This document shows positions 5,563 to 47,194 of a DNA stretch of 55,898 bases, piece by piece. The stretch comes from Rhizobium sp. Q54 (GTDB taxonomy: Bacteria > Pseudomonadota > Alphaproteobacteria > SMXS01). Positions within the stretch are counted from its first letter, which is position 1, and every line of letters begins with the position of its first letter. The DNA is taken from positions 1-55,898 of the forward strand of contig CAMDTB010000014.1 in NCBI GenBank assembly GCA_945907245.1, given 5' to 3'. Under the pieces are notes generated by a model, which saw nothing but the letters and a program-made list of their open reading frames with translations, was not told the origin of the DNA and made no database searches. Made by a program: the position numbers and the translations under genes.

Positions 5563-5927
<365 letters not shown>

Positions 5928-5980
5928 GCTTCATCCAATCTACCGTACTATCGGTCGCCGAAACTCTGGGGAGAGCACGC

Positions 5981-11573: not shown

Positions 11574-11933
11574 GGAACGGCTCTCCCCTCGAAATGCCTT
11601 CGACCGTCGACAGAGGGGTCCCGCGGGAACCCGGTCATCGCACCGGCCGAAAGCGAACAAAAAATGAACAAATTGAGATGGGATCAGCCGCCGGATGAGG
11701 CGCACCGCGCGACTCGACTGCTCCTTCTTCTTTAGACCCAGAGAAAATCCCTGTCACCCACAGCTTCAATTACTTGTGATTCAGCATTGGCGGGGGCGCA
11801 TCCCATTGACCACCCATGTTTCCCCATGGTATCCCATAATGTCCCAAGGAGAGACGCCGCTGGCCAAACTGAGTCGGCTCGAATCAACGGTGGGGTGAGG
11901 GTGTGAAACGCAGGTAGATCGTGAGGGGCGGCC
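11574..11933. other. 360-base intergenic region upstream of the dcw cluster
   Basis: No convincing gene is seen. It holds the leader of the minus-strand unknown gene, an AT-richer patch near 11658-11690 containing two TTTGTTC-like units on the minus strand, the phased CCCA repeats at 11801-11847, and about 85 bases of mraZ leader including GGTGGGGTGAGGGTG at 11889-11903. Confidence 0.6.
11801..11847 (+). promoter_or_regulatory. probable MraZ operator: five phased CCCA repeats
   Basis: CCCA occurs at 11802, 11813, 11823, 11833 and 11843, giving spacings of 11, 10, 10 and 10 bases; four of the five are CCCAT. On the minus strand they read TGGG, the core of the TGGGN boxes that MraZ of E. coli recognises as direct repeats with 5-base gaps, i.e. 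the same 10-base period. TTGACC at 11806-11811 and TATCCC at 11830-11835 (18-base spacer) could be promoter elements embedded in the repeats, which would fit autorepression. The mraZ start is about 87 bases downstream. Confidence 0.75.
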
Positions 11934-12398
11934 GTGCCGCTGTTTCTGTCGTCATATGCCAACAAGGTGGACAAGAAGGGACGGGTATCCGTTCCCGCGT
12001 CGTTCCGCGCCGAGTTGGAGCATCTGAACGGCTTCGTCGCCTTCCCCCATACCGAGCACGCCTGCATCGAGGGCTGGGATCGCAGCCGCATGGACGAACT
12101 TGCCGAAGCCATGGATCAATTTTCGCCGCTGTCCGAGGAGTCCGACGCGCTGGGCTATCTGATGGGCAAGGCGCGCGTGCTGCCGTTCGACCCGGAAGGC
12201 CGCGTCATCCTGCCGCCTTACCTGATCGAAACCGCCGGCATCACCGACAGCGCGGTATTCGTTGGCCGCGGCAAGTCGTTCCAGATCTGGGATCCGGAGC
12301 GCCACGCCGCGTTCGAGACCCGGATCAAGCCGAGCTCGGCCATCGTTGCCAAAGCCATTTCGCTGGGCAGGACCAGGCGCGGGGCCGTGCATGAATGA
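11934..12398 (+). CDS. mraZ: transcriptional regulator MraZ
   Basis: A 154-residue DNA-binding protein built of two SpoVT/AbrB-like halves, each with the MraZ hallmark: DKKGRVSVPASFR (residues about 13-25) and DPEGRVILPPYL (about 84-95). MraZ forms a ring-shaped oligomer that binds repeats upstream of its own gene and controls the dcw cluster. The GTG start follows GTGAGGGGCGG. The phased repeats at 11801-11847 are its expected target. Its stop lies eight bases inside rsmH. Confidence 0.95.
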   Translation: MPLFLSSYANKVDKKGRVSVPASFRAELEHLNGFVAFPHTEHACIEGWDRSRMDELAEAMDQFSPLSEESDALGYLMGKARVLPFDPEGRVILPPYLIETAGITDSAVFVGRGKSFQIWDPERHAAFETRIKPSSAIVAKAISLGRTRRGAVHE

Positions 12399-13371
12399 CA
12401 CTGGCCGTCATGCTCCCGTCATGCTGCGCGAGGTGGTCGACGCCATCGCGCCGCGGGCGGGTGAGACCGTCATTGACGCAACCTTCGGCTGGGGCGGCTA
12501 CACGCGCGGTTTCCTCGAGGCCGCGCCCTGCGTCGTCTACGGCATCGACCGCGATCCCAGCGCCGCCGCCCGCGCTGCCGTCATCGCTTCCGAATTTCCC
12601 GGCCGCTTCACGTTCATCGACGGAAAGTTCGGCGACATGATCGAACTGATGGACCGGGCGGGCGTCACCGCCGTCCAGGGCGTCGCCTTCGACATCGGCG
12701 TGTCGTCCATGCAGCTCGACGACGCCGAGCGCGGCTTCTCGTTCCAGAAGGACGGCCCGCTCGACATGCGCATGGCGGGCCGCGAGTCCGATGCGCCCGA
12801 TGCGGCCGAACTGGTCAACAACGAGGACGAGGCCGAGATCGCCCGCATCATCTGGCTCTATGGCGAGGAGCGTAACTCGCGCCGCATCGCCCGCGCCATC
12901 GTCGCTGCCCGGAAGGCCAAGCCGATCACCCGCACCCTCGAGCTGGCCGAGATCGTCGCCCGCGTCTCGGGCGGCGTGCTGCCGCACAAGATGCACCCGG
13001 CGACCCGCACCTTCCAGGCGCTGCGCATCCATGTGAACGACGAACTGGGCCAGCTCGAGATGGGCCTGCGCGCCGCCGAGCGGCTGCTGGCGCCCGAAGG
13101 CCGGCTCGCGGTCGTCTCGTTCCATTCCCTCGAGGACCGGATCGTGAAGAACTTCCTGCGCGAGCGGGGCGGCATGGCGCCCTCCACGTCGCGCCATCTG
13201 CCGGAACAGCCTGGTCGCCTCGCCCCCAGCTTTACCCTGACAGCGCGCGGCGCCGTCAAGCCGACCGACGCGGAGACCGATGCGAATCCGCGGGCGCGCT
13301 CGGCCCGCCTGCGCGCGGCCATCCGCACCGCCAACGACGCCTGGCCCGATGACGGGAGGCGCGCGGCATGA
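12391..13371 (+). CDS. rsmH: 16S rRNA (cytosine1402-N4)-methyltransferase RsmH (MraW)
   Basis: A 326-residue SAM-dependent methyltransferase modifying C1402 in the decoding centre of 16S rRNA. It starts MNDTGRHAPVMLREVVDAI, with the SAM-binding DATFGWGGYTRGFLE, the diagnostic FDIGVSSMQLDDAERGFSF, and near the C-terminus VVSFHSLEDRIVKNFLR. The ATG lies within the last codons of mraZ (8-base overlap); the frame is open further upstream inside mraZ, but that is shadow sequence. The stop overlaps ftsL by four bases. Confidence 0.97.
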   Translation: MNDTGRHAPVMLREVVDAIAPRAGETVIDATFGWGGYTRGFLEAAPCVVYGIDRDPSAAARAAVIASEFPGRFTFIDGKFGDMIELMDRAGVTAVQGVAFDIGVSSMQLDDAERGFSFQKDGPLDMRMAGRESDAPDAAELVNNEDEAEIARIIWLYGEERNSRRIARAIVAARKAKPITRTLELAEIVARVSGGVLPHKMHPATRTFQALRIHVNDELGQLEMGLRAAERLLAPEGRLAVVSFHSLEDRIVKNFLRERGGMAPSTSRHLPEQPGRLAPSFTLTARGAVKPTDAETDANPRARSARLRAAIRTANDAWPDDGRRAA

Positions 13372-46787: not shown

Positions 46788-46799
46788 GAGGAAGTGACG

Positions 46800-47085
46800 G
46801 GGCTTCTGTTGCCCGGTGCCCCGCCGAACCGCGCTTAAGCATGCTTATTAGGCAGCTACTGCGAATGCCTCATTATCGTTGGCATTTGTGCGTTTGGCCC
46901 GATGACGGCGGTTACCATACCGAGCAAAAAGCTTGTCTTTACCACGCACGTCGATCCTGTTTCGCCCCCATGAACCCGCCTTTGGAAGGGAGGGTGAATG
47001 GTGGAGGCGCCGGGTACCGCCCCCGGGTCCGTAACGCTTATTCCACAAACCGTTTATCGCCATAGTCGGGTTACCCCGACACGAC
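46800..47085 (-). ncRNA. ssrA: circularly permuted two-piece tmRNA
   Basis: The gene reads acceptor piece first. The acceptor piece ends with GGCGCCTCCACCA, its CCA at 46999-47001; a spacer of about 29 bases to be removed follows; the coding piece begins GGGGGCGAAACAGGATCGAC at 46969. GGGGGCG and CGCCTCC pair as a 7-bp acceptor stem (one G-T pair), leaving A-CCA at the end. The tag frame is GCC AAC GAT AAT GAG GCA TTC GCA GTA GCT GCC TAA, encoding ANDNEAFAVAA. The hairpin CGGGGTAACCCG near 47075 is in the acceptor piece. Both outer ends are approximate. A weak -10 (TATATA, minus strand near 47087-47092) lies upstream. tmRNA rescues stalled ribosomes and marks products for ClpXP with SspB. Confidence 0.92.
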
Positions 47086-47194
47086 TTATATAGGCCTATG
47101 CGCGGGAACATTAAAGGGGCAGCAGCATCCCAATGTGACGGCCAAATCCGAATCGGCTATACTCCTCATCCACAATTTGCGGCCGGAGCGGCGG

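Follow-up and report, generated by a model that had tools for sequence, protein, structure and literature searches.

The region directly upstream of mraZ carries an array of helically phased CCCA boxes. Very probably, this array is the dcw cluster's MraZ operator, at which MraZ would cover the promoter and repress its own operon (negative autoregulation). An operator function had been proposed in a first-pass annotation of this DNA, and it is supported by the conservation of the phased cores, by the uniqueness of the array and by its tie to mraZ, from which we infer binding. The function is an ordinary one; the layout, with the boxes inverted across the class Alphaproteobacteria, is less so.

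A phased CCCA array at the head of the dcw cluster

In the window, i.e., the whole stretch of 55,898 nucleotides analyzed here, CCCA lies at positions 11802, 11813, 11823, 11833 and 11843, in steps of 11/10/10/10 bp. These positions and spacings are exactly those given in the first-pass annotation, and the possible -35 hexamer that it had placed within the array, TTGACC, is present at 11806-11811. Read on the minus strand, the boxes are direct repeats with a TGGG/GTG(G) core at steps of one helical turn (three of 10 bp and one of 11). The features of the locus are listed below, with conservation values from the class-wide analysis.

11802-11805, minus strand: box 1 (TGGG on the minus strand), abutting the -35, 11 bp to box 2
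11806-11811, plus strand: predicted -35 hexamer TTGACC; TTGA in register in 105/128 alphaproteobacteria, retained where mraZ is lost
11813-11816, minus strand: box 2; class-wide CCCA columns mostly 93-96%
11823-11826, minus strand: box 3; class-wide columns mostly 94-99%
11827-11835, plus strand: predicted extended -10, TGGTATCCC (TGn + TATCCC), 18 nt past the -35 and overlapping box 4
11833-11836, minus strand: box 4, overlapping the -10; class-wide columns mostly 95-97%
11843-11846, minus strand: box 5, at the predicted transcription start; class-wide columns about 80%
11934-12398, plus strand: mraZ, GTG start; PF02381 at 63.7 bits, cut-off 23
12391-13371, plus strand: rsmH (mraW), second dcw gene; PF01795 at 316.9 bits

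The array is genuine and non-random. The pattern CCCAN6CCCAN6CCCA has two overlapping matches in the 55.9-kb window, both of them in the array (0.02 expected), and a scan of the 3.34-Mb genome found it nowhere but there. A chain of five CCCA at steps of 9-11 bp did not arise in 40,000 Markov-1 simulations of the intergenic region, in which a four-unit chain arose once, and a five-unit chain of any non-homopolymer tetramer did not arise in 3,000 simulations.

MraZ, an oligomeric ring with AbrB-like domains, is among the most widespread bacterial regulators. The cognate protein is encoded beside the array, with both of its DxxGR DNA-binding loops intact (DKKGR and DPEGR), and is somewhat divergent, since all matches to the NCBIfam MraZ models fall under their cut-offs. 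Solved MraZ structures include 1n0e and 9qlg as well as 9qlr and others. No start earlier than 11934 is possible, given the in-frame TGA at 11922. The remaining dcw genes follow rsmH, as judged from the ORF list and a domain search. A stretch of 87 bp separates the array from the mraZ start; from the position of the -10, transcription is predicted to begin near box 5, with a leader of about 91 nt.

Other elements were seen around the array. An imperfect palindrome, TTCAATTACTTGTGATTCAG, lies at 11765-11784, some 22 bp ahead of the -35. Its TTACTTG is retained in 7/7 congeners at a nearly constant distance to the -35, and at one locus (L009) its counterpart, GGAATTACTTGTAATTCC, directly abuts the -35; the element may be bound by a second regulator. 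Just before the mraZ start, the leader block GGGTGTGAAACGCAGGTA(A)GATCGTGAGGGGCGGCC at 11895-11933 is near-identical in 7/7 congeners, a degree of conservation that seems to exceed the needs of ribosome binding. An RNA element in the mraZ leader was considered and rejected: Rfam gives only RNase P RNA (5564-5930, plus strand, upstream of the dcw cluster) and a permuted alpha-type tmRNA (46793-47119, minus strand) in the window, and on the loci of 20 relatives it gives RNase P RNA alone and no leader RNA element. The alpha-type tmRNA agrees with an uncultured alphaproteobacterial host. RNase P RNA likewise lies near mraZ at locus L017.

The array is conserved and inverted throughout the class

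Four of the six congeners compared have all five boxes with the 11/10/10/10 spacing unchanged. Another (L007) has five boxes at 10/10/10/10, and the sixth (L006) has kept boxes 1, 4 and 5, with boxes 2 and 3 degraded. Identity across the seven congeners is 98% in the core columns of boxes 2-5, 87% in the spacers and 76% in the downstream flank. The first-pass annotation had suggested aligning close relatives to see whether the cores are conserved while the spacers vary, and this is what we found, both here and across 128 alphaproteobacteria, with 1.38 bits per column in the box cores versus 0.39 in the spacers (counting only spacer columns without a promoter element).

We then surveyed the mraZ upstream regions of 128 alphaproteobacteria and of 41 Pseudomonadota from outside the class, E. 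coli among them. On the mraZ sense strand, 89/128 alphaproteobacteria have at least three CCCA spaced by exactly 10 bp, and 116/128 have at least two. When all 256 tetramers were ranked by phased count, CCCA and the overlapping CCAT came out top in this class, where at least three phased TGGG occurred in 1/128 regions and at least three phased GTGG in 0/128. In the 41 other Pseudomonadota the top tetramer was GTGG, with at least three phased copies in 18/41 and at least two in 34/41; at least three phased TGGG were seen in 4/41 and CCCA in 0/41. Comparison of the alphaproteobacteria with the others gave Fisher p values of 3e-17 and 3e-13, which are descriptive, species being non-independent. 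The arrays also differ in length: at least four phased CCA cores occur in 92/128 alphaproteobacteria and at least five in 44/128, as against at least four phased TGG cores in 9/41 of the others and at least five in 0/41.

These counts make the inversion and the longer array traits of the class, beyond a single genome. The reading of TGGG on the strand opposite to mraZ, reported in the annotation for this locus, is thus not only true but class-wide. The orientation is unambiguous, because the class profile scores at most 0.2 bits on the reverse strand of the same regions versus a median of 48.1. The layout of E. coli and Burkholderia type, with TGGG/GTGG on the mraZ sense strand and boxes downstream of the -10, does not describe alphaproteobacteria on either count; their boxes begin at the -35, with the promoter elements as predicted from conservation.

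Boxes and predicted promoter elements share bases

An ungapped profile of the 128 regions reads CCAT-TGACgC-CCATAAAATC-CCATGnTATC-CCATnnnnnC-CCA. It was seeded with the pattern of the first loci, toward which its exact values lean, whereas the tetramer count was unseeded. Boxes 2, 3 and 4 are conserved at about 93-99%, box 5 at about 80% and box 1 at 50-70%, and spacer columns lacking promoter elements are weak. Two further blocks are conserved, TTGAC right after box 1 and TGnTAT right before box 4, and both share bases with the boxes (CCCAT|TGAC at the -35 and TGnTAT|CCCA at the -10); conservation of boxes 1 and 4 may be partly promoter-derived. TGnTA is present in 107/122 regions. The spacing from the -35 to the -10 (TATCCC), which carries the TGn extension, is 17 nt in the consensus and 18 nt in the genus of the window.

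The annotation had not recorded the -10, which we place at TGnTATCCC, 11827-11835. A -10 at CATAAT (11835-11840) was rejected, being 23 nt from TTGACC, which is too long, and unconserved both in L007 and in the class. A sequence-only sigma-70 promoter scan found no promoter at the array, because TATCCC matches TATAAT at just 3/6 positions.

Could the conserved feature be only a housekeeping promoter, made up of TTGAC and an extended -10, with the CCCA period as a by-product and MraZ binding elsewhere, for example at GGTGGGGTGAGG at 11889, the stretch whose protection by MraZ the annotation had named as evidence against the array? We consider this very unlikely. TTGAC and TGnTAT do stand in fixed register with the boxes and persist in genomes of family f69 that lack mraZ. 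However, boxes 2 and 3 lie between the hexamers and yet are among the most conserved columns, box 5 lies beyond the hexamers, and ordinary promoters lack the phased pattern, since it is unique in the genome. The 11889 stretch is neither phased nor conserved in congeners, TGGG being absent from it in L004-L006, and was rejected as an MraZ site.

If the array is an operator, the role of its first box needs separate consideration. In 71 genomes TTGA precedes box 2 by 6 nt, and in 34 it does so by 7 nt, as in the window. The 11-bp first step thus comes from box 1 and the -35 sliding together by 1 bp, and is common to about a third of the class. The annotation had taken this step as a sign of a weaker outer site. 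At 0.56 bits per column, box 1 is indeed weaker in general, but no effect of the 11-bp step is visible, the CCCA of box 1 being complete in 11/34 regions at 11 bp versus 28/71 at 10 bp (p=0.52). Similarly, the five units claimed for the locus are there as five CCCA, and we refine them to a conserved four-box core plus a box 1 fused to the -35.

A further step would be to regard box 1 as -35 context only and the operator as one of four boxes rather than five, a reading to which we give somewhat less than an even chance. It fits with the lower information content of box 1 (0.56 vs 1.38 bits), with its sliding by 1 bp together with TTGAC at unreduced frequency, and with the four repeats of Burkholderia (PMC7761207). 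Against this, the CCCA of box 1 is perfect in 7/7 congeners, even in L006 with its degraded boxes 2 and 3, and five phased CCA cores occur in 44/128 alphaproteobacteria while five phased TGG cores occur in 0/41 others.

The array follows the presence and loss of mraZ

A scan of 211 genomes of the class for CCCATGNTATCCCA gave 109 places in 102 genomes. Among the 101 places in genomes with listed mraZ coordinates, 96 were within 450 bp upstream of mraZ, with CCCA on the sense strand in 96/96. The five other places were in G010, G091, G117, G114 and G192. Three of these five outliers were read (G010, G091 and G117) and lie inside coding frames, and a wider regulon based on these second matches was thus rejected; in G114 the motif and mraZ each lie at the end of a contig, on two different contigs. 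The motif was present in 101/183 genomes with detected mraZ versus 1/28 without (p=5e-8; species non-independent), the sole exception being G028, a fragmented assembly also without rsmH. The array is thus essentially confined to the position just ahead of mraZ, where the dcw cluster begins.

Where mraZ is lost, the site is absent or decayed, except in G134 and in family f13. Three f69 genomes without mraZ (L208, L209 and L210) have retained TTGACG, GTTGACGG and CATGnTACC before rsmH, with decayed boxes, and an mraZ-bearing relative in this family (L143 / G184) has four perfect boxes; the promoter is therefore separable from the operator. The remnant promoter of L208-L210, about 250-300 bp before rsmH, constitutes a natural operator-loss experiment. 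In G134, mraZ is lost, yet three boxes and TTGACG are retained, which reads as a recent loss; another binder could also maintain them.

The f13 genomes scored as lacking MraZ actually carry a divergent MraZ ORF together with a phased CCC(N) array. The mraZ-less set is thus imperfect, as the PF02381 profile misses these proteins, and the f13 case extends rather than contradicts the tie between array and mraZ. Two f13 loci (L224 and L225) have, some 680 bp upstream of rsmH, CCC(N) boxes that lack the conserved A ahead of the divergent MraZ, possibly reflecting an altered box specificity. Elsewhere, two copies of CCCATGATATCCCA lie 250 bp apart upstream of one mraZ (L236; G024:C6:190731 and 190981), a possible duplicated promoter-operator.

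The same evidence bears on whether another dcw regulator binds the array, such as the response regulator CenR. ChIP enrichment of CenR upstream of mraZ was reported in Rhodobacter sphaeroides (PMC9275681), its site likewise has TGA directly repeated at roughly one helical turn (TGA-N8-TGA), and the three boxes retained in G134 without mraZ would suit a different binder. Nonetheless, no CenR motif was found at the mraZ promoter in that study, the CCCA array is near-exclusive to mraZ and tracks its presence, and the TGGG core is that of the E. coli MraZ box. We regard this alternative as very improbable.

A model for MraZ repression and the origin of the layout

MraZ would bind the boxes, as suggested by the identity of their core with known MraZ sites and by their phase, exclusivity and co-loss, and the element would serve as the dcw promoter, as suggested by its fixed -35/-10 spacing, conservation and position. 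On a single face of the DNA, the MraZ ring would contact one TGGG box after another, each a helical turn from the next, and bound MraZ would span the promoter from the -35 as far as roughly the start site. With boxes occupying the -35, the extended -10 and the stretch up to the start site, MraZ and RNA polymerase would exclude each other, and MraZ would thus repress its own operon. Repression is also the expected outcome from the overlap with both hexamers, together with MraZ self-repression in E. coli and dcw repression in M. genitalium (PMC8475190).

For the origin of this layout, we propose a scenario that we hold to be evenly balanced between right and wrong: at the base of the Alphaproteobacteria, or close to it, the operator was turned round and shifted upstream, so that up to five boxes and the hexamers came to interlock in a single 45-bp element. 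An inversion shared by the whole class would be previously undescribed; MraZ would then repress by occupying the core promoter in its entirety instead of the start-site region, and its ring would run in the opposite sense.

In the open literature, MraZ sites are little mapped outside E. coli, Burkholderia and mycoplasmas. The class-wide element provides a ready motif for Alphaproteobacteria and defines their dcw promoter, and the variety of arrays is a natural experiment on a ring-shaped repressor that reads either polarity and three, four or five units.

Comparison with known MraZ sites

Our search of the open literature, with subscription journals and RegPrecise outside its scope, returned no description of an inverted site or of an alphaproteobacterial MraZ site; priority for the inverted site is uncertain. 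The mraZ/UpsM promoter of R. sphaeroides (PMC5089854) is, like that of the window, an alphaproteobacterial dcw promoter, but its leader is 268 nt long and includes an sRNA, as opposed to the predicted leader of about 91 nt here. A text search of PMC5089854 turned up no mention of a repeat or an MraZ binding site.

MraZ sites with GTG repeats are found in Burkholderia, B. subtilis and mycoplasmas (PMC7761207, PMC8475190), and the TGGG core of the window agrees with them. The Mollicute site, AAAGTG[T/G] (Fisunov et al. 2016, as summarized in PMC8475190), is by that summary likewise made up of serial direct repeats in the mraZ promoter, occurring nowhere else in the M. genitalium genome; its core, AAAGTG(T/G), differs from the ATGGG of the window, and it belongs to another class, the Mollicutes. 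In B. cenocepacia, 7-nt repeats with 3-nt spacers were shown by EMSA to bind MraZ (PMC7761207). The 10-bp step is the same as in the window, with GTG as the core, whereas the four repeats, termed the GTG motif, lie past the -10 and over the start site (PMC7761207).

The closest comparison is with E. coli, whose MraZ boxes at Pmra/mraZ1p were described by Eraso et al. 2014 (as cited in PMC8475190 and PMC7761207). The annotation was correct that TGGG is on the sense strand there, in cagTGGGaaattgTGGGgcaaagTGGG shortly before the ATG (NC_000913). With a leader of 38 nt (PMC5089854), boxes so near to the ATG lie around the start site, after the -10. Both systems have the TGGG core, direct repeats at a 10-bp step and a position directly upstream of mraZ as the first dcw gene. 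However, E. coli has three boxes with TGGG on the sense strand after the -10, whereas the window has five, with CCCA on the sense strand, extending from the -35 to the predicted start.
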